Assembly: GCF_002699985.1 (NCBI RefSeq)
Contig: NZ_LKBT01000003.1
Coordinates: 124,001-188,000, forward strand
DNA length: 64,000 bases
DNA from: Pseudomonas sp. ICMP 561
GTDB taxonomy: Bacteria > Pseudomonadota > Gammaproteobacteria > Pseudomonadales > Pseudomonadaceae
Reading direction: 5' to 3'
Below the pieces are notes generated by a model. That model did no database searches. It was not told where the DNA came from and saw nothing but the letters and a program-made list of their open reading frames with translations. Positions 1-60,684 of the stretch are shown piece by piece. Position 1 is the stretch's first letter, and each line of letters begins with the position of its first letter. The translations under genes were made by a program, and so were the position numbers.

Positions 1-1
1 T

Positions 2-730
2 TTAAAATTTGGGGACCTAGCCCGTAACGAATGTGAGTACCTCACGAAAGAAGATCGCGGGCTGATTTCTGATATCTATGCTTATGCTCAAGGTGAGGAT
101 GTTGACATGGAATATGTTGATGGGGTCGCTCGTTCTCTTGGGCATTATCGGATGTATGGGCATTTCAAGTCGGATTTTAACAAGTGCAATTACGATCTCC
201 AGGGTTGGAAGTTGACGGTTGCTTTTCCAGAAGAAGATGCAGTTGTCGCGTCGCGTATATTGAATGGCTCCGCGATCAATAGCACACGGCTCGATCCGGA
301 TTTCTTACGATATGCGCTGACTCCAGCCTCTGGCGCGTTGGTGAACTTGGGTTATTTTGAATTCATGGAACATGTCGTGACGAAGTTCTCTGATGAATCT
401 AATACAGCAGCTCCTGTGGAGAGCACGTTCTCTAGCTATGTGCCCAGGCCAGGGGAGGGGTACTACGTAATGACGACCTCGAGTACGGTCAGGATGGCGA
501 ATTTCGTTCAATATGTCGTCAGTGAGGGGGGAGTTTTGCGTCTGACAGAGAAAGGTCGAGCACTGAGGGGGGATTCGGGAGAGGGGGACGATAAAACAGT
601 TCGACCCCATCTGGAGCTTGTGAGGACCAGGGCGGGGCTGGAGATATTACGCGAATGGCCCGGCAATGATCTTTACCCAAGAGAGCCGGGTTGGCTTGGC
701 AGTCTATGGGATCGGCTTGGAGAAATGTAG
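2..730 (+). CDS. Hypothetical protein, 5' end cut by window edge
   Basis: The frame is open from base 2 with no stop, so the first internal ATG at 107 is probably not the true start and the gene begins before the window. The visible 242 residues show no signal peptide, membrane segment or motif I can name. The C-terminal part is acidic and charged (GEGDDK stretch), ending in a tryptophan-rich tail. Base composition is visibly less GC-rich than the metabolic genes that follow, and the next gene shares this, which suggests accessory DNA. Function not recognised; the reading frame itself is well supported by its length. Confidence 0.7.
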   Translation, partial: LKFGDLARNECEYLTKEDRGLISDIYAYAQGEDVDMEYVDGVARSLGHYRMYGHFKSDFNKCNYDLQGWKLTVAFPEEDAVVASRILNGSAINSTRLDPDFLRYALTPASGALVNLGYFEFMEHVVTKFSDESNTAAPVESTFSSYVPRPGEGYYVMTTSSTVRMANFVQYVVSEGGVLRLTEKGRALRGDSGEGDDKTVRPHLELVRTRAGLEILREWPGNDLYPREPGWLGSLWDRLGEM

Positions 731-895: not shown

Positions 896-1339
896 GTGAA
901 GAAAATTATAGTGGTTACACTTTTGACTTTGTCAGCCAATACGTTCGCAGCAGAGGATGTCATTACAAAGTCTAAAGTGCCTGACCGGATTGTGGTCGCC
1001 AAAGCTGGCGTTGGTCTGTCGCAGTTTACGATGATGACTGTGGATTTTCCCAGAAGTCAACGTTATTTGCCGAAAAGCTTGGAGAGCATACATTGGACTA
1101 GTACCTACTATCCGAATAATACAGGTGAGCACGTTCAGATATGTTACACCCGGGCAGGTAGAGCTGGTTACGACCAGTGCGAAGAAATTTCCAAGAACTC
1201 TTCAGGCTCGACTGAGGCTTTTAATCACCATGGTTTTGACAGATTTGCGAGAATCACTATCAAGCATTTGGTGAGTGGCGGACAAAATCAGGGAACTCCC
1301 GCTGGTGAAGATTCAATAGCTGTTCACTACAGCTACTGA
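896..1339 (+). CDS. Small secreted protein of unknown function
   Basis: 147 residues starting at GTG, with AAGGA about 9 bp upstream. Residues 1-18 form a signal peptide (KK, a hydrophobic stretch, then a cut near TFA-AED), so the mature protein should be periplasmic or secreted. The mature part is short and polar with two cysteines about 13 residues apart (ICYT and YDQCEE), which could form a disulfide, and it ends in a beta-rich SIAVHYSY. I recognise no family. The AT content resembles the gene before it and differs from the following cluster, consistent with a small accessory region. Confidence 0.7.
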   Translation: MKKIIVVTLLTLSANTFAAEDVITKSKVPDRIVVAKAGVGLSQFTMMTVDFPRSQRYLPKSLESIHWTSTYYPNNTGEHVQICYTRAGRAGYDQCEEISKNSSGSTEAFNHHGFDRFARITIKHLVSGGQNQGTPAGEDSIAVHYSY

Positions 1340-1706
1340 TTGTTGAGTATTCACGCGCTACCCGCTTGAGTAACCACGCTGTTTTCCCTAAACACTCTTA
1401 AGTGGCAGCAAATTCATTCGCGAAAGCACCCCATTAGACGTAACTGATTTCAGTAGTCCCGCTGTCGTAAATGAATTCGCTGCCACAGATGATCACGATC
1501 TGCCTCAGCCCCCTCGACAGTCCGCCAGCTCGTTCACAAATTTTCCCTCCCTGTGCCTTATTTCTGTGCAACGCTTGCACCGCGGGGCACGGTAGGCGCT
1601 TTAATAGTGCCTGGTTCTGCCTCGCCATCGAGGAACCGCCGTATTTGCCCGGATGGCATAAGTCTTGCGCGGTTCCATTACCGTCCAGGCTCGCAGGAGG
1701 CACGCC
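1340..1706. repeat. Gap with a degenerate REP-like inverted repeat (1402-1486)
   Basis: No convincing gene. At 1402-1426 the sequence GTGGCAGCAAATTCATTCGC begins a motif whose inverse (GAATTCGCTGCCAC) ends at 1486. The same GAATTCATTCGCGAAAG core occurs again near 59755, so this is a decayed member of a dispersed palindromic family. Bases 1490-1700 should hold the promoter of the amidoligase cluster, but no clear -35/-10 pair stands out. Confidence 0.55.
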
Positions 1707-4700
1707 GTGTCGATTCACATTGCCTTGCACCACGTCACGCATTACCGCTACGAACGAGCGGTTGAACTGGGTCCGCAGATTGTCCGCCTGCGTCCTGCGG
1801 CCCACAGCCGCACCCGGGTTTTGTCGTATTCACTGAAAGTCCTGCCTGAAAATCACTTCATCAACTGGCAGCAGGACCCTCAAGGCAACTACCTTGCGCG
1901 TCTGGTCTTTCCGGAAAAGACCAACGAGCTGCGTGTTGAAGTCGATCTGGTCGCCGAAATGGCGGTCTTCAACCCGTTCGACTTCTTCCTCGAGCCTTAT
2001 GCCGAGAAGATCCCGTTCTTTTATGCCAGCGAAGAGCAGCGCGAACTGGCGCCGTATCTTGAAAAGCTCCCGCTGACGCCAAAGTTTGCCAACTATCTGG
2101 CCAGCATCGACCGCACGCCATTGCCTGCCATCGACTTCCTGGTCGGGCTCAACCAGCGCCTGAGTCAGGACATTGATTACCTGATCCGCATGGAGCCCGG
2201 CGTACAAACCCCGGAATTCACGCTGGAAAATGCTTCTGGCTCCTGCCGCGACTCGGCCTGGTTGCTCGTGCAGCTGCTGCGTCATCTGGGCATGGCTGCG
2301 CGTTTTGTGTCCGGCTATCTGATTCAGCTCAAGGCTGACGTTGAAGCGCTTGATGGGCCATCCGGTACCGACGTCGATTTCACTGACCTGCACGCCTGGT
2401 GTGAGGTGTATCTGCCAGGCGCAGGCTGGGTGGGGCTTGATGCGACGTCCGGCCTGTTCGCGGGGGAGGGGCATATTCCTCTGGCGTGCAGCCCGGAGCC
2501 TTCGTCGGCAGCGCCGATCAGTGGTCTGGTTGAACCGTGCGAAACCGAGTTCAGTCATGAAATGTCGGTGGAGCGCATTTGGGAAGCGCCTCGCGTTACC
2601 AAGCCTTACACCGAAGAACAGTGGGCCGAGATTCAAGCGCTGGGCCATCAGATCGATCGCGACCTGACTGACAACGACGTGCGACTGACCATGGGGGGCG
2701 AGCCCACGTTCGTCTCCATTGATGATCGCGACGGTGCCGAGTGGAACACCGCTGCACTGGGGCCGAAAAAGCGCGCCCTGTCGGCCGAGTTGTTCCAGCG
2801 CATGCGCAAACACTATGCGCCGCTGAGTATCGTGCATTTTGGTCAGGGCAAGTGGTACCCGGGCGAGCAGTTGCCGCGCTGGTCGCTCAATTGCTTCTGG
2901 CGTAAAGACGGGCAGCCTGTGTGGCACAACAATGCATTGATCGCCGACGAAACCGAAAGCTACGGTGCAACGGGCGAACTGGCCGGGAAGTTCCTGACCA
3001 GCGTCGCTGAGCGGCTGAAAGTGCCGACGCGTTTTGTGTTCCCTGCCTACGAAGACAATTTCTATTACCTGTGGCGTGAGGGCGCACTGCCTGCCAACGT
3101 CAGTGCCGAAGACTCACGTCTCAGTGACGAACTCGAGCGTGCGCGACTGCGCAAGGTGTTTGCTCAAGGGCTGGACAAGGTTATCGGTCAGGTCCTGCCC
3201 TTGGCGCGCTCCGTCGACGGTGATCGCTGGCAGAGTGGTCGCTGGTATCTGCGGGATACCCATTGCCGTCTGGTGCCGGGTGATTCGGCGCTGGGCTATC
3301 GTTTGCCGTTGGCATCGCAACCCTGGGTCAAGGCGGCGGAATATCCGTTCATTCACCCCACCGACTTCAATCAGGATTTCCCCGAGCTGCCAGATGACGG
3401 GCAAGTTCAGGCGCAACTTACCGGGCTAACAGAACAGCTGGACGCCAACGCTGAACGTATGCCGAAGATCGACGAGTCGGCCGACTGGCTGACCCGCACG
3501 GCGCTCTGTGCCGAAGCGCGGGAAGGGCGTTTGTATGTGTTCATGCCGCCGCTGGAAAAACTCGAGTATTACCTGGAGTTGGTGTCGGCCATCGAAGCCA
3601 GCGCCGAAGAGCTGAACTGCCCGATTCTGCTTGAAGGCTATGAGCCGCCGAGCGATCCGCGTCTGGCGAATTTCCGTATCACGCCTGATCCGGGAGTCAT
3701 TGAAGTCAACGTACAGCCGTCCGCATCCTGGGACGAGTTGGTGGAGCGCACCGAGTTTCTCTACGAACAGGCGCGTCTGACGCGACTGACCACCGAAAAA
3801 TTCATGATCGACGGCCGTCACACCGGTACCGGCGGCGGCAACCACTTCGTACTGGGTGGCGCGACGCCCGGGGATTCGCCGTTCCTGCGCCGTCCTGATG
3901 TACTGCGCAGCCTGCTCAGCTACTGGCACAACCATCCGTCGCTGTCGTACCTGTTTTCCGGGCTGTTCATTGGCCCGACTTCCCAGGCACCACGGGTCGA
4001 TGAGGCGCGTAACGACTCCCTGTACGAGCTGGAAATTGCCTTCGCGCAGATGCCCAAACCCGGTGAAGAAGTAGCGCCCTGGGTCGTTGACCGGTTGCTG
4101 CGTAATTTGCTGATTGATGTCACCGGCAACACCCACCGGGCCGAGTTCTGTATCGACAAGCTCTATTCCCCGGACGGGGCCACTGGCCGTTTGGGGCTTT
4201 TGGAGCTGCGTGCCTTCGAAATGCCGCCGCATGCGCGGATGAGCCTGGCTCAGCAACTGTTGCTGCGTGCGCTGGTCGCGCGGTTCTGGCGCGAGCCGTA
4301 TGCACCGGCCAAGCTGGCCCGATGGGGTACTGAGCTGCATGACCGGTTCATGCTGCCGCACTTCATCGAGCAAGACTTTGCAGACGTGATCGAAGAGTTG
4401 AACAGTGCCGGTTATCCGGTACGCGCCGAGTGGTTTGCGGCGCATCTGGAGTTCCGGTTCCCCAAGGTTGGCGATTATGCAGTCAGCGGCATCGAGCTGG
4501 AATTGCGTCAGGCGCTGGAACCGTGGCACGTGCTGGGCGAGGAGGGTTCGGCCGGCGGCGCTGTGCGTTACGTGGATTCTTCGCTGGAGCGCTTGCAGGT
4601 CAAGATTAATGGCCTTCCGCCGAAACGGTATGTATTGACCTGTAATGGCATTGCGATACCGTTGCAGCCCACCGGGCGGGTTGGCGAATTTGTTGCTGGT

Positions 4701-5000
4701 GTGCGTTATCGGGCCTGGCAACCTGCCAATTGTCTGCAACCGACCATTCCGGTGCATGCACCGCTGGTCTTCGATCTGGTTGATACATGGATGCAGCGCT
4801 CACTGGGCGGCTGCGAGTATCATGTCGCGCATCCTGGTGGGCGCAATTACGAAACCCTGCCAGTCAACGCCAACGAAGCGGAAAGCCGCCGTCTGGCGCG
4901 GTTCTTCAGGATCGGTCACACCCCCGGCAAACTGGAAGTGCCACTGCTGAGCGTTAACGATGAACTGCCAATGACGCTGGATATGCGTCTGCATAAATAA
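1707..5000 (+). CDS. Transglutaminase-like / DUF2126 putative amidoligase
   Basis: 1097 residues from GTG at 1707, preceded by AGGAGG with 6-bp spacing; a longer frame from 1665 lacks such a site. Residues 1-80 resemble the bacterial transglutaminase N-terminal beta domain (HHVTHYRYER). The papain-like core follows with Cys180 (SGSCRDSAW), His229 (LHAWCEVY) and Asp245 (GLDATSG), a complete catalytic triad. From about residue 320 to the end lies the DUF2126 region, a putative glutamine-synthetase-like amidoligase domain, with TMGGEPTFVS, IEVNVQPSASW and DGRHTGTGGGNHFVLGG. The family is predicted, not proven, to form or cut amide bonds in peptides or proteins. It is the first of three genes (with 5245 and 7740) usually found together. 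No signal peptide, so cytoplasmic. Confidence 0.88.
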   Translation: MSIHIALHHVTHYRYERAVELGPQIVRLRPAAHSRTRVLSYSLKVLPENHFINWQQDPQGNYLARLVFPEKTNELRVEVDLVAEMAVFNPFDFFLEPYAEKIPFFYASEEQRELAPYLEKLPLTPKFANYLASIDRTPLPAIDFLVGLNQRLSQDIDYLIRMEPGVQTPEFTLENASGSCRDSAWLLVQLLRHLGMAARFVSGYLIQLKADVEALDGPSGTDVDFTDLHAWCEVYLPGAGWVGLDATSGLFAGEGHIPLACSPEPSSAAPISGLVEPCETEFSHEMSVERIWEAPRVTKPYTEEQWAEIQALGHQIDRDLTDNDVRLTMGGEPTFVSIDDRDGAEWNTAALGPKKRALSAELFQRMRKHYAPLSIVHFGQGKWYPGEQLPRWSLNCFWRKDGQPVWHNNALIADETESYGATGELAGKFLTSVAERLKVPTRFVFPAYEDNFYYLWREGALPANVSAEDSRLSDELERARLRKVFAQGLDKVIGQVLPLARSVDGDRWQSGRWYLRDTHCRLVPGDSALGYRLPLASQPWVKAAEYPFIHPTDFNQDFPELPDDGQVQAQLTGLTEQLDANAERMPKIDESADWLTRTALCAEAREGRLYVFMPPLEKLEYYLELVSAIEASAEELNCPILLEGYEPPSDPRLANFRITPDPGVIEVNVQPSASWDELVERTEFLYEQARLTRLTTEKFMIDGRHTGTGGGNHFVLGGATPGDSPFLRRPDVLRSLLSYWHNHPSLSYLFSGLFIGPTSQAPRVDEARNDSLYELEIAFAQMPKPGEEVAPWVVDRLLRNLLIDVTGNTHRAEFCIDKLYSPDGATGRLGLLELRAFEMPPHARMSLAQQLLLRALVARFWREPYAPAKLARWGTELHDRFMLPHFIEQDFADVIEELNSAGYPVRAEWFAAHLEFRFPKVGDYAVSGIELELRQALEPWHVLGEEGSAGGAVRYVDSSLERLQVKINGLPPKRYVLTCNGIAIPLQPTGRVGEFVAGVRYRAWQPANCLQPTIPVHAPLVFDLVDTWMQRSLGGCEYHVAHPGGRNYETLPVNANEAESRRLARFFRIGHTPGKLEVPLLSVNDELPMTLDMRLHK

Positions 5001-5063
5001 GAAACAGATAGGAGCTGCTGCCCCAGTATCCATTGCTCCGCGCTGTTTCGCGGCAACATTGGA

Positions 5064-5156
5064 CTGTAGGAGCTCACCGAGGTTACGAGGCCAGCGATAG
5101 CGGTTTGTCTGATACGCCGCCATCGCTGGCCTCGTAACCTCGGTGAGCTCCTACAG
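5064..5156. repeat. Long perfect inverted repeat (REP doublet)
   Basis: Two perfect 35-bp arms starting CTGTAGGAGCTCACCGAGGT and ending CTCCTACAG, separated by a 23-bp centre. It shares the GTAGGAGC/GCTCCTAC ends of the window's other REP elements but has its own inner stem. It lies between the first and second genes of the amidoligase cluster and could act as a transcript-end stabiliser or partial terminator. Confidence 0.85.
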
Positions 5157-5244
5157 GGAATCCTTTTTTGCATAAAACGCAGTCGACCCTCAGCTGACAT
5201 CCGACTGCGCTACTCTGAAATTTTTAGTCTCTGCCGAGCCTTCC

Positions 5245-7740
5245 ATGCGCGACTTGCTTGACCATTACCCTGTGTTTGCGGGTACCTATCACGAAATGCT
5301 TGATGCCGATGGAGTCGTTCGCCCTCATTGGCAGCGCATGTATGAGCAACTGCAACGCAGCACTTCCGCGCAATTGATTCAACGGCAGGCCCTGTTGGCC
5401 CGGCAGATTCAGGAAAATGGCGTCACCTACAACGTCTACGCCGACCCCAAGGGCGCGGACCGTCCGTGGGAGCTGGATCTGCTACCGCACCTGATCCCTG
5501 CCGAAGAATGGCAGCAGGTTGCGGCGGGCATTGCGCAACGGGCCAAAGTGCTCAATGCGGTACTGGCTGACCTGTATGGTCCGCAAACCCTGATCGCCCA
5601 AGGCCTGCTGCCTGCCGAACTGGTGTTTGGTCACAACAATTTTCTCTGGCCGTGCCAGGGCATCACCCCGCCGGAAGGCGCATTTCTGCATATGTACGCG
5701 GTGGATCTGGCGCGCACCCCGGATGGTCGCTGGTGGGTAACGGCTGATCGTACTCAGGCGCCGTCGGGTGCTGGTTATGCGCTGGAAAACCGCCAGATCG
5801 TGTCCCGTGCTTTCCCGGAAACCTATCGGGATTTGCGGGTTCAGCACCTGTCCGGTTTTTTCCGTGCATTGCAGGAAACCCTGGCGCGCCAGGCGCCGGC
5901 CAATAACGAAACGCCGCTGATCGTGCTGTTGACGCCGGGGCGCTTCAACGAAAGCTATTTCGAGCATCTGTATCTGGCGCGTCAGTTGGGTTATCCACTG
6001 GTGGAAGGTGGCGACCTCACGGTGCGGGACGCGACGGTGTATCTGAAAACCCTCAGTGGCTTGCGTCGGGTGCACGCGATCATGCGTCGCCTGGACGATG
6101 ATTTCTGCGACCCGCTGGAGCTACGCACCGATTCCGCACTCGGTGTACCCGGCCTGCTGGAAGCGGTGCGTCAGGGCAAAGTGCTGGTTGCCAACGCGTT
6201 GGGCAGCGGTGTGCTGGAGTCACCGGGTCTGCTGGGCTTTTTACCGAAGATTTGTCAGCACCTGTTTGGCGAGGACCTGACCCTGCCGTCCGTGGCGACC
6301 TGGTGGTGCGGCGAGCCGCCCGTGCTGGCTCAGGCGCTAGAGAAGCTGCCAGATTTACTGATCAAACCGGCGTTTCCTTCGCAAAGTTTCTCGCCGGTGT
6401 TTGGCCGGGATTTGAACAAGGCACAACGCGAAGCACTCGCCCAGCGCATGCAGGCCAGACCCTACGCCTACGTGGCTCAGGAACTGGCGCAGCTGTCTCA
6501 CGCGCCGATCTGGCAGTCCGATGGTCAGCAGTTGCAGCCTCGTGCCATCGGTATGCGTGTTTATGCCGTGGCCAGTTCTGAAGGTTATCGTGTCCTGCCG
6601 GGCGGACTAACTCGCGTTGCCGCCGAAGCTGATGCTGACGTGGTTTCGATGCAGCGCGGCGGTGCCAGCAAAGACACCTGGGTGCTGGGCGAGTTGTCGC
6701 AAACCGGTGAGCCCTGGAAAGGCCAGCGCACGTTGGGCGTGCACGACCTGATTCGTCGCGATCCGTATTTGCCGTCCCGCGTGGTGGAGAACCTGTTCTG
6801 GTTCGGTCGTTATTGTGAACGTTGCGACAACAGTGCGCGCCTGCTGCGCATCATGCTCACCCGTTATGTGGATGGCGACGACCCTGAAGCGCTCGAGGCG
6901 GCCGTGGAGCTGGGTGAACGTCTGAACTTACTGCCTGATGAGGAAGAGGGCGGAACATTGCCTGAGCGGCTTCTCGCGGCCCTTCTCGGCGAAGAGTGGC
7001 CGTTCAGCCTGCGCGCCAATCTGCAGCGTTTGCAATGGGCGGCCTCGCAAGTGCGTGGCAAGTTGTCTCGGGAAAACTGGCAGGCACTGGTCGAACTGCA
7101 GCGTGAAGCGACTAGCCTGGACAGCAAGGACCCTGATTTCGGCGAACTGTTGGACTTCCTCAACCGGCTGGTCATGTCGCTGGCAGCGTTATCCGGTTTT
7201 GCCCTGGATGACATGACCCGTGACGAAGGCTGGCGCTTCCTGATGATCGGTCGTCGTATCGAGCGGCTGAAGTTTCTCAGCAACAGCCTGTCGGCGTTTC
7301 TGCGCAGCGCGGCCGTGACCGATCAGGCCGGTCTGGAGTGGCTGCTGGAGCTGGGCAACAGCAGCATTACCTATCGCTCGCGATACCTGGCCGTGCCGCA
7401 GTTGATCCCGGTCCTTGACCTGCTGTTGCTGGATGATCAGAACCCTCACGCCGTGCTGTTCCAGCTCAAGCTGGTGTCCAAATCCCTGAATCATCTGAAC
7501 GAAGAGTTCGGTGCGCCTCGCGATGCCAGCCTTGGGACGCTGGTTCGACGCCTGTCGAGTTTCGATCTGGGTTGTCTGGAGAATCCCTTGTTTGGTGACA
7601 GCAGTATCAAGGCCGTGCTGGAAGGGCTTGCGGACATGTTGCATAGCATTGGAGATGCCAGCGGGCAGGTTTCTGATCGCCTCGCCTTACGTCACTTCGC
7701 CCACGTCGACGATATCAGCCAACGTACGGTGTCCGTCTGA
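5245..7740 (+). CDS. Circularly permuted ATP-grasp / alpha-E domain fusion protein
   Basis: 831 residues. The N-terminal half (about 1-480) matches the circularly permuted ATP-grasp type 2 family (old DUF404/DUF407), with YNVYADPKG, a Gly-Phe-Leu-Pro-Lys segment and LLIKPAFPSQSFSP as the likely ATP-phosphate-binding stretch. From about residue 509 (LPSRVVENLFWFGRYCERCD) to the end it is the helical alpha-E domain (old DUF403). In many genomes these are separate genes; here they form one chain. ATP-grasp enzymes of this type are predicted to ligate a carboxylate to an amine. The stop overlaps the next start (TGATG), so translation is coupled to the following transglutaminase. Substrate and product unknown. 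Confidence 0.88.
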   Translation: MRDLLDHYPVFAGTYHEMLDADGVVRPHWQRMYEQLQRSTSAQLIQRQALLARQIQENGVTYNVYADPKGADRPWELDLLPHLIPAEEWQQVAAGIAQRAKVLNAVLADLYGPQTLIAQGLLPAELVFGHNNFLWPCQGITPPEGAFLHMYAVDLARTPDGRWWVTADRTQAPSGAGYALENRQIVSRAFPETYRDLRVQHLSGFFRALQETLARQAPANNETPLIVLLTPGRFNESYFEHLYLARQLGYPLVEGGDLTVRDATVYLKTLSGLRRVHAIMRRLDDDFCDPLELRTDSALGVPGLLEAVRQGKVLVANALGSGVLESPGLLGFLPKICQHLFGEDLTLPSVATWWCGEPPVLAQALEKLPDLLIKPAFPSQSFSPVFGRDLNKAQREALAQRMQARPYAYVAQELAQLSHAPIWQSDGQQLQPRAIGMRVYAVASSEGYRVLPGGLTRVAAEADADVVSMQRGGASKDTWVLGELSQTGEPWKGQRTLGVHDLIRRDPYLPSRVVENLFWFGRYCERCDNSARLLRIMLTRYVDGDDPEALEAAVELGERLNLLPDEEEGGTLPERLLAALLGEEWPFSLRANLQRLQWAASQVRGKLSRENWQALVELQREATSLDSKDPDFGELLDFLNRLVMSLAALSGFALDDMTRDEGWRFLMIGRRIERLKFLSNSLSAFLRSAAVTDQAGLEWLLELGNSSITYRSRYLAVPQLIPVLDLLLLDDQNPHAVLFQLKLVSKSLNHLNEEFGAPRDASLGTLVRRLSSFDLGCLENPLFGDSSIKAVLEGLADMLHSIGDASGQVSDRLALRHFAHVDDISQRTVSV

Positions 7741-8642
7741 TGAGCGCCCGTTACCAGATTTTTCACGACACGCATTACAAATACGACAGCCCGGTTTCGC
7801 TTGCCCAGCAGTTGGCGCACCTGTGGCCGCGACCCAATCCCTGGCAGCGCTGCACCGAGCAGCAGTTACTGGTCAGCCCGATCCCGACGATTCGCCGGGA
7901 TGAGTTCGACGTGTTCGGCAACCCGCTGACCCGGCTGGCCTTTGAGCGGCCACATGATGAACTGGAAGTGAATGCGCGCCTGCAGGTCGAAGTCCTTGAG
8001 CGTTCGCCGCTTAATTTCGATCATTCGCCTGCGTGGGAAATGACTCGCAGCATCATGACCTACAACGCCCGGCCGATGTCGGCGGACATCATGGAAGCCT
8101 GTCGCTATCGTTTCGAATCGCCTTACGTGCATTTGAAGCAGTCGTTCATCGAGTTCTCGGCAGATTGCTTTGTGCCGAGTCAGCCGTTGATGTGGTGCGT
8201 GCAGGCATTGATGGAGAAGATCTTCACCGAGTTTACGTTTGACAGTGAAGCAACCCAGGTGGCGACGCCGCTGGTCGAGGTGCTGGAACGCCGTCGCGGC
8301 GTCTGCCAGGACTTTGCCCACCTGATGCTGGCGTGCTTGCGCTCACGTGGTTTGTCGGCTCGATACATCAGTGGTTATTTGCTGACCCAGCCACCACCGG
8401 GTCAACCACGGCTGATCGGCGCGGATGCGTCCCATGCCTGGGTGTCGGTGTTTTGTCCGGTACTGGGTTGGGTGGACTTCGACCCGACCAATAACGTGCA
8501 GCCTGCGCTTGAGCACATCAGTCTGGCCTGGGGGCGGGACTTTTCAGACGTTTCGCCGTTACGCGGAGTGATTCTGGGGGGTGGCAGTCACGACCCCGAA
8601 GTACGGGTGACGGTGATGCCGATTGAGGGTGAAGGTGACTAA
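7740..8642 (+). CDS. Transglutaminase-like cysteine peptidase family protein
   Basis: 300 residues, overlapping the upstream stop by one base. Residues 1-100 form the bacterial transglutaminase-like N-terminal domain (YQIFHDTHYKYDSPVSLAQQ). The catalytic triad is present: Cys189 (RRGVCQDFAHL), His232 (DASHAWVSVF) and Asp248 (WVDFDPTNN). No signal peptide. It is the third gene of the amidoligase cluster. The family is thought to act as a peptidase or acyl-transferase on the product or target of the neighbouring ligases, but its reaction has not been shown as far as I know. Confidence 0.87.
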   Translation: MSARYQIFHDTHYKYDSPVSLAQQLAHLWPRPNPWQRCTEQQLLVSPIPTIRRDEFDVFGNPLTRLAFERPHDELEVNARLQVEVLERSPLNFDHSPAWEMTRSIMTYNARPMSADIMEACRYRFESPYVHLKQSFIEFSADCFVPSQPLMWCVQALMEKIFTEFTFDSEATQVATPLVEVLERRRGVCQDFAHLMLACLRSRGLSARYISGYLLTQPPPGQPRLIGADASHAWVSVFCPVLGWVDFDPTNNVQPALEHISLAWGRDFSDVSPLRGVILGGGSHDPEVRVTVMPIEGEGD

Positions 8643-8791: not shown

Positions 8792-8986
8792 TCAGCTGGC
8801 TGGCTTGTCGTCAGTGCTGGTCTGTTCTACTGGCGCAGCTTCATCGGTCGCTTCAGTCGCTTCTGTCTCGCCTTCAGCACTGGTTTCGGCCAAGGCAGCG
8901 TTTTTGCGCTGTAGCTTTTCCTCTTTCTTCTGCTCTTTGGCCAGATCTCGCTGACGTTTCGCGAAGGAGTAGTTAGGTTTAGCCAT
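8792..8986 (-). CDS. Small highly charged protein
   Basis: 64 residues. The first 30 are very basic (MAKPNYSFAKRQRDLAKEQK) and likely helical; the rest is acidic and rich in Ala, Glu and Thr, probably disordered. I recall similar short proteins as common in Pseudomonas, annotated only as hypothetical. The basic N-terminus could bind nucleic acid or ribosome, but that is a guess. Confidence 0.72.
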   Translation of the reverse strand: MAKPNYSFAKRQRDLAKEQKKEEKLQRKNAALAETSAEGETEATEATDEAAPVEQTSTDDKPAS

Positions 8987-12165: not shown

Positions 12166-12480
12166 TGGGTCGCTCCAGCAGGACCGGCCGCCAGACGCGG
12201 CCAAACGAAAAATGAATCAAGTGGTCACGGCGTCCCGTGGCAGAGCCATCGAGCGCTCATTGAGCTTGTTGTTGATAATGACCGACATAATGCCAGTCAG
12301 TGCGGGATAGGGGCAGTTTTCTTTGGTAGGGGCTGGTGGCGAGGTCTTGTCAAACATGAAACGGCTATCAGATCTGTAGGAGCGCACGAGCACCGCGAGG
12401 CCGCGATGGCGGTGTATCAGGGGGAACGCTATCGCGGCCTCGCGGTGCTCGTGCGCTCCTACAGTAATGCGTGTTGTATA
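12166..12480. repeat. Gap with long REP doublet (12374-12464)
   Basis: Inverted arms begin CTGTAGGAGCGCACGAGCAC and end CTCCTACAG, about 91 bp overall. Bases 12166-12370 should carry the pncB promoter on the minus strand, but I see no clear element or known operator. No gene. Confidence 0.75.
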
Positions 12481-17432: not shown

Positions 17433-17448
17433 TGGCACGCCACTTGCT
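17433..17448 (+). promoter_or_regulatory. Sigma-54 promoter of the ABC transporter operon
   Basis: TGGCACGCCACTTGCT matches the sigma-54 consensus TGGCACG-N4-TTGCW at every defined base, with GG and GC separated by exactly 10 bp. The expected start site, about 12 bp downstream near 17460, leaves a leader of roughly 43 bases before the binding-protein gene. Confidence 0.85.
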
Positions 17449-60324: not shown

Positions 60325-60684
60325 TAAAGAGACTCCTGTCGATTGAGCTGCCATTTAGCCTGAACAGCCTGGCGATGTAAAAAAGCCCGGAATGTGGCGC
60401 GGTGCCGCGCTGTCGCAAAGCAATGTAGTACCTGTAGGAGCTGCCCCGGTGTTCCTGACACCACACTGTCGCGCAGCAAAACATGGGACCTGTAGGAGTG
60501 AGCTTGCTCGCGATTTCGGTATGTCAGTCAATAAATACATCGGCTGTGCTGACGTAATCGCGAGCAAGCTCACTCCTACAGAAAAAGCATTTCAAATCAG
60601 ATGATTGAATTTTTTTGATAGACGCATTCTACGCTGACCTGCGAACGCAATTCCCATGGGCCGGTGGGTCCTACAGAATCAGCA
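60325..60684. repeat. Gap with REP doublet (60490-60581)
   Basis: CTGTAGGAGTGAGCTTGCTC and inverse ending CTCACTCCTACAG at 60490-60581, plus a partial GTAGGAGCTGCCCC element near 60434. No gene seen. Confidence 0.82.

Follow-up and report, generated by a model that had tools for sequence, protein, structure and literature searches.

A cluster of three adjacent genes occupies positions 1707–8642 of the window, the whole 64,000-nucleotide stretch of Pseudomonas sp. ICMP 561 DNA analysed here. Gene 1 joins a transglutaminase (TG)-like domain to DUF2126, gene 2 is a fusion of ATP-grasp and alpha-E domains and gene 3 (TG3) encodes a second TG-like protein. The cluster is confirmed; it is widespread, belongs to a type that had been predicted before and, we infer, makes and breaks amides under nitrogen starvation. 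Our analysis adds (i) family-wide loss of the ExN motif in the fusion, (ii) structural support for the fold of DUF2126, (iii) a nested arrangement of two modules and (iv) sigma54-type sequences before both. The reading that we favor, to which we give somewhat less than an even chance, is that a sigma54-type promoter (55/55 Pseudomonas-type loci) would control a double enzyme that makes and cuts amides, a second TG and a pseudo-ligase partner, the whole forming an amide cycle in nitrogen economy. The features of the cluster are as follows.

1707..5000, + strand: gene 1, TG-like + DUF2126 protein, 1097 amino acids (aa), GTG start (open reading frame (ORF) scan, Pfam, 48-sequence alignment)
2106..2444, + strand: Transglut_core of gene 1, residues 134–246, triad C180-H229-D245
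2532..4988, + strand: DUF2126 of gene 1, residues 276–1094; predicted glutamine-synthetase fold at about residues 296–935
5245..7740, + strand: gene 2, ATP-grasp + alpha-E fusion, 831 aa (ORF scan, Pfam)
5743..5751, + strand: lost ExN site, gene 2 residues A167-D168-R169; E-D-N in short paralogs and 3n6x
6769..7698, + strand: alpha-E domain of gene 2, residues 509–818; E525-R526 and E673-R674 conserved
7740..8642, + strand: gene 3 (TG3), TG-like, 300 aa, triad C189-H232-D248 (Pfam, alignment)

All three ORFs lie where a preliminary description of this DNA had placed them. Its identification of gene 2 as an ATP-grasp/alpha-E fusion is borne out by Pfam, and the TGATG coupling that it saw between genes 2 and 3 is present, the stop TGA (7738–7740) sharing a base with the ATG at 7740. 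The GTG start of gene 1 is kept in 30/30 Pseudomonas loci; the ORF listing alone starts the gene further upstream, with a TTG at 1665. None of the three genes has a match in NCBIfam.

The ATP-grasp domain of the fusion

The Pfam domains of gene 2 are CP_ATPgrasp_2, CP_ATPgrasp_1 and Alpha-E, and its circularly permuted ATP-grasp falls within the CP_ATPgrasp_2 fold family (PF14403 above cut-off, 3n6x fold). The ExN motif of such enzymes has a metal-binding role, like E144/N146 of human glutathione synthetase. Neither residue is found in any fused protein (E in 0/72, N in 0/72), whereas the motif is kept in 24/26 short paralogs, and the glycine loop is degraded across the fused family. The contrast is plain in 3n6x, a putative glutathionylspermidine synthase of Methylobacillus flagellatus, which keeps LEDN and an SGGYGM loop where the window protein has TADR and no loop of that kind. 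Because residues kept by working relatives are absent, the fusion is predicted to be inactive, and it is likely a non-catalytic partner. The preliminary description had treated its ATP-grasp as a working ligase; the loss of ExN and glycine loop throughout the family speaks against this, and the assay of ATP use that was proposed for the fusion is therefore expected to fail. A literature search for inactive ATP-grasp proteins returned no paper naming one.

Two candidates for longer chains were rejected. Open frames of 1114–1255 aa in three phylum genomes suggested ATP-grasp/alpha-E and TG3 in a single chain, but the parts occupy different frames in L145–L147, and a 1391-aa ORF at L117, considered as an ATP-grasp/alpha-E/TG3 chain, matches TG queries only.

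The TG–DUF2126 protein and TG3

Gene 1 contains Bact_transglu_N, Transglut_core and DUF2126 (1356.7 bits), and gene 3 contains Bact_transglu_N and Transglut_core. The expectation of two TG-fold enzymes with full Cys-His-Asp triads stands up well, as C180/H229/D245 is invariant in 48 aligned TG–DUF2126 proteins and C189/H232/D248 is present in 67/67 TG3 proteins.

DUF2126 occurs once in the genome. An AlphaFold2 model of the gene 1 protein (pLDDT 79) retains the glutamine-synthetase (GS) fold in this domain, so that the earlier description of DUF2126 as GS-like gains structural support. The predicted fold resembles that of the GS superfamily (GmaS, naphthylamine GS, YbdK), from which DUF2126 differs in its low identity (6–14% to the GSs compared), in the lack of a match when a shallow profile was compared and in the TG domain fused in front. 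The 48-sequence alignment has many invariant acidic, Arg and His columns; among them E643, E666, H713, E833 and R835 are candidates only for GS-type active-site residues. As a predicted bifunctional chain, GS-like plus TG-like, the protein recalls the glutathionylspermidine and trypanothione synthetase/amidases, to which identity is ∼10–12%. Searching the literature for DUF2126 with related family names gave no paper naming DUF2126.

A second, short module and its distribution

PF14403 is found twice in the 6.3 Mb host genome, in the window and at a separate locus (L003). The latter holds a short module on one strand, comprising an unfused ATP-grasp (469 aa), an alpha-E protein (319 aa) and a TG (272 aa). 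The preliminary description overlooked this module with its ExN-bearing ATP-grasp, as well as the sigma54-type sequences before both modules. Of six short-module TGs among the loci compared, three have Ser in place of the triad Cys. PF00227 matches the genome once, in a 199-aa open frame on contig C5 that is taken for HslV; the window and the second module are on C3 and C1, and there is therefore no Anbu beside either module.

The modules are nested in the genus sample of 59 genomes, where PF14403 occurs in 55 and DUF2126 in 47. With PF14403 matches sorted by open frame, 51 genomes have the fusion and 55 have the short form; all genomes with DUF2126 carry the fusion and all those with the fusion carry the short form. 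The short form stands alone in four genomes and four have none. Among 200 phylum genomes, DUF2126 is found in 63 and PF14403 in 116 (113 of them above cut-off), with PF14403 in 63/63 genomes that have DUF2126 versus 53/137 that do not (Fisher p 6e-20, uncorrected for kinship). The fusion lies at most 5 kb from DUF2126 in 32/36 fusions among the stronger matches listed for these genomes, and two regions with no DUF2126 match (G251, G082) hold a fusion and a TG3-like gene.

Across 80 loci and the window's own, adjacent same-strand pairs number 72 for TG–DUF2126/fusion and 64 for fusion/TG3. An unfused ATP-grasp or alpha-E label appears in the same stretch at 28/80 loci and at none of 25 Pseudomonas-type loci, a count that excludes a 174-aa fragment at the L091 edge as well as fusions in L084, L091 and L101 that are likely cut. 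The two modules form a single run (ATP-grasp, alpha-E, (TG), TG–DUF2126, fusion, TG3) in Marinobacter (L094, L097, L100) and Caballeronia (L126), and the same run carries an insert in Verrucomicrobia (L138, L142). At several GC-rich loci genes were missed or shortened by the ORF caller.

Promoter sequences before both modules

The sigma54 –24/–12 consensus is TGGCAYR-N4-TTGC and that of the NtrC activator site is GCAC-N7-GTGC. Two features precede gene 1.

1654..1668, + strand: sigma54 –24/–12 sequence TGGCATAAGTCTTGC, 38 nt before the gene 1 GTG
1566..1580, + strand: GTGC-N7-GCAC palindrome before the promoter; may serve as an activator site, unlike the usual NtrC arrangement

The position and conservation of the sigma54-type element constitute strong evidence for a promoter of this type. 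In a first set of 30 Pseudomonas loci, the window's included and all taken from 48 matches, the exact element lies 38–40 nt before the GTG in 30/30, and the surrounding upstream DNA has diverged. In a second set it lies 37–39 nt before the matched start at 25/25 Pseudomonas-type loci; the two sets may have species in common. A coarser scan of Pseudomonas-type operon heads found it at 25/27, our own two included. The window as a whole has two exact matches (0.36 expected). The short module at L003 has one sigma54-type match just before its first gene, and among 30 short-module loci the exact element is present in 20 and TGGCTCG in 3. In 21 of these 23 loci a GCAC-N7-GTGC site begins 67 nt upstream of the element, compared with 0.08 expected from shuffles. 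Upstream of the DUF2126 module in the 30 Pseudomonas loci, the inverted arrangement GTGC-N7-GCAC occurs in 10/30, with N6 spacing in 4/30 and N8 in 3/30. The glnA gene of the host genome has a sigma54-type site 103 nt upstream. Of 78 operon heads outside Pseudomonas, 4 have the exact element (0.44 expected) and 17 have a relaxed form (2.3 expected), some of these relaxed sites lying within the called ORF start.

The second exact sigma54-type sequence of the window is TGGCACGCCACTTGC, at 17433–17447.

Published expression in relatives

These expression data concern relatives or other genes, none of them a Pseudomonas DUF2126 gene. In Burkholderia cenocepacia H111, I35_5080-83 (DUF404/407, DUF403, TG and large TG protein) are among common NtrC/sigma54 targets, and the table for the ntrC mutant gives them values of –8.2, –9.4, –9.4 and –6.0 (PMC5491218). 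A different B. cenocepacia strain has the gene order short ATP-grasp, alpha-E, TG, TG–DUF2126, fusion, TG3, and on this basis I35_5083 is taken as TG–DUF2126. In that strain GCACCGTTGTGGTGC ends 154 nt before the first match and AGGCACGTTCCTTGC was located by eye between them.

In Pseudomonas putida, PP_2686-2688 rise 11 to 37-fold when nitrogen is limiting, a range that covers wild type, relA/spoT and rpoN strains, and PP_2685 rises 1.1 to 4.8-fold; PP_2686-2688 also appear under ntrB/ntrC (PMC7801951). Induction of PP_2685-2687 is also seen in PMC3325844, and a reporter driven by the PP_2688 promoter is induced 3.7-fold (PMC8050072). Because PP_2685 is described as homologous to a proteasome beta subunit, the P. 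putida operon is Anbu-type. TG, DUF403, DUF404 and DUF407 domains group with urea metabolism in marine metagenomes (PMC3597751).

The Anbu operon (ATP-grasp, alpha-E, TG, Anbu) has three domain families in common with the window cluster, and as PP_2685-2688 it is induced by nitrogen limitation in P. putida (PMC7801951, PMC8050072). It differs in that the window ATP-grasp is fused to alpha-E and has no ExN, TG–DUF2126 is added and the window cluster has no Anbu homolog. The RloABC operon of Pseudomonas aeruginosa likewise has an ATP-grasp and a TG-family protein in one locus, but RloB is an inactive TG with seven membrane helices and RloC is RimK-like, whereas the window triads are intact (mBio 2025, PMC12239564).

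A proposed amide cycle and the points against it

In the mechanism that we propose, both modules would be switched on when nitrogen is short, by way of sigma54 and an activator that is likely NtrC, as their promoter sequences suggest. The ligases would be the short ATP-grasp and DUF2126. The TG–DUF2126 double enzyme would use ATP to form an amide bond and would cut or transfer it, its TG-type domain, like the others, serving as an amide hydrolase or transferase. The pseudo-ATP-grasp/alpha-E chain, presumably derived from the short module, may be a scaffold or regulator. The whole would be a make-and-break amide cycle like that of glutathionylspermidine synthetase/amidase, serving nitrogen economy. 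A historical version is possible, if doubtful on balance: an ancestral short module would have been duplicated, its ATP-grasp fused to alpha-E as a pseudo-ligase scaffold and the GS/TG double enzyme recruited, giving a sigma54-controlled two-module cycle.

Several observations weigh against this proposal. For the proteins, loss of ExN alone leaves another activity of the fusion possible, and Lys374 is kept in 58/72 fused proteins. Several stretches of the DUF2126 model are below pLDDT 50, and profile comparison of DUF2126 with the five GSs of the genome gave no match (hhalign probability 0.1, with a shallow DUF2126 profile, Neff 2.2). Four Pseudomonas genomes have the fusion without DUF2126. 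For the promoter, the exact sigma54 pattern occurs 16 times genome-wide, one being a duplicate of the window's, versus 12 for a reversed control, which makes the pattern weak evidence by itself. The element is absent from 7/30 short-module loci, which look like another subfamily, and the exact site is missing at 74/78 operon heads outside Pseudomonas; directly upstream of DUF2126 it is found in 0/22 phylum loci with a called start. GCAC-N7-GTGC is found upstream of the DUF2126 module in 0/30 Pseudomonas loci, and for this reason NtrC is only a presumed activator of that module. One of the seven short-module loci without the element (L157/L188) has, downstream, what we take to be an Anbu-like gene (L188:3567-4304, – strand). 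This Anbu-bearing relative is thus part of the subfamily in which the sigma54 sequence is missing.

Expression in relatives also raises difficulties. The B. cenocepacia NtrC list comprises the first four genes, without the fusion and TG3 (PMC5491218). In an rpoN mutant of P. putida under nitrogen limitation, PP_2686-2688 still rise 14-20-fold and urtA-D 7-17-fold (PMC7801951); because induction persists, sigma54 is not needed for PP_2686-2688. The PP_2685 promoter is unresponsive to nitrogen (PMC8050072). The need for rpoN has opposite outcomes in B. cenocepacia and in the P. putida Anbu-type operon, as published for these relatives only.

If the historical version is correct, the two modules would be a new kind of amide conjugation/deconjugation machine in nitrogen starvation. 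The proteins worth assaying would be TG–DUF2126 and the short ATP-grasp rather than the fusion, and the condition pointed to is nitrogen limitation. Genetics would have to take account of the DUF2126 module occurring, in the genus sample, only alongside the short module. The conserved promoter sequence, of a kind that many nitrogen-starvation genes use, would be an entry point to a widespread system.

Alternative explanations

An unlikely alternative is amine salvage, in which DUF2126 links glutamate to a small amine imported as nitrogen source and, once the amine is processed, the TG domains hydrolyse the gamma-glutamyl amide. The DUF2126 model matches ordinary GSs no less well than amine-using ones, and neither of the two neighbour families that recur was recognised as an oxidase or dehydrogenase. 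Hydrolytic nitrogen scavenging, in which the TG enzymes act on proteins or cross-links to free ammonia or amino acids and DUF2126 is no ligase, agrees with the invariant triads of TG–DUF2126 and TG3 and resembles an idea in PMC6376114. We judge it quite improbable, given the GS fold kept by the DUF2126 model and its many invariant acidic, Arg and His columns.

The preliminary description favored tagging with a peptide or amide, the fusion being a working ligase. Clusters of this type have indeed been proposed to synthesize peptides or attach tags, an idea for which two Anbu papers cite Iyer et al. 2009; the two papers found no substrate (PMC5666114, PMC6376114). In Yersinia bercovieri the Anbu-operon ATP-grasp frees phosphate from ATP, the same study reporting no Anbu peptidase activity (PMC6376114). 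This biochemistry belongs to the Anbu-operon ATP-grasp rather than to the fusion, in which ExN is gone in 72/72 proteins and the glycine loop degraded, and no nearby peptide family of at least 50 aa recurs; as a whole this explanation appears more improbable still. A secondary-metabolite cluster, suggested by the ligase and hydrolase composition only, is very improbable for genes present in 47/59 genus and 63/200 phylum genomes, with 72 gene 1/gene 2 pairs in kept order among 81 DUF2126 loci and no recurring tailoring gene recognised.

Gene spacing and neighborhood

Genes 1 and 2 are separated by 244 nt, a gap that is 20–100 nt in 45/72 pairs, and a hairpin between them may uncouple the two genes.

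5064..5156, no strand: REP-like hairpin between genes 1 and 2; 40-nt arms, 98% complementary; z –14.35

REP-like hairpins with CTGTAGGAG-type ends are found in the window at 5064–5156, 12374–12464, 60490–60581 and elsewhere. In a few loci inserts of 0.8–2.3 kb between genes 1 and 2 hold ORFs that are unrelated or doubtful, and at L123 an amino-acid-binding transporter protein (named by eye) sits between the fusion and TG3.

Neighbors were surveyed at 55 non-Pseudomonas loci using ORFs of at least 50 aa from a simple caller, with recurrence defined as at least four loci. Only two families recur, an 833-aa membrane protein (8/55 loci) and a 902-aa protein (4/55). No small-peptide family recurs in this survey, and the reported absence of a nearby carrier peptide accordingly holds for ORFs of at least 50 aa.

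The nearest protein relatives among the matches listed are from Pseudomonas where named (top match 92%, Pseudomonas loci up to 90%). A near-perfect 122-nt copy of the gene 1 promoter and first codons lies 2851 nt upstream, just beyond the 5′ edge of the window (L004:2798-2919 versus window 1649–1771), with 66 nt at 100% identity followed by 57 nt at 93%. The island between the copies holds a 511-aa ORF (3′ end at window 1–730) and a 147-aa ORF (window 896–1339), neither with a Pfam match; the N terminus of the latter is signal-like. On the 3′ side of the cluster, a small ORF starting MAKPN lies on the opposite strand at window ∼8796–8986 (–).

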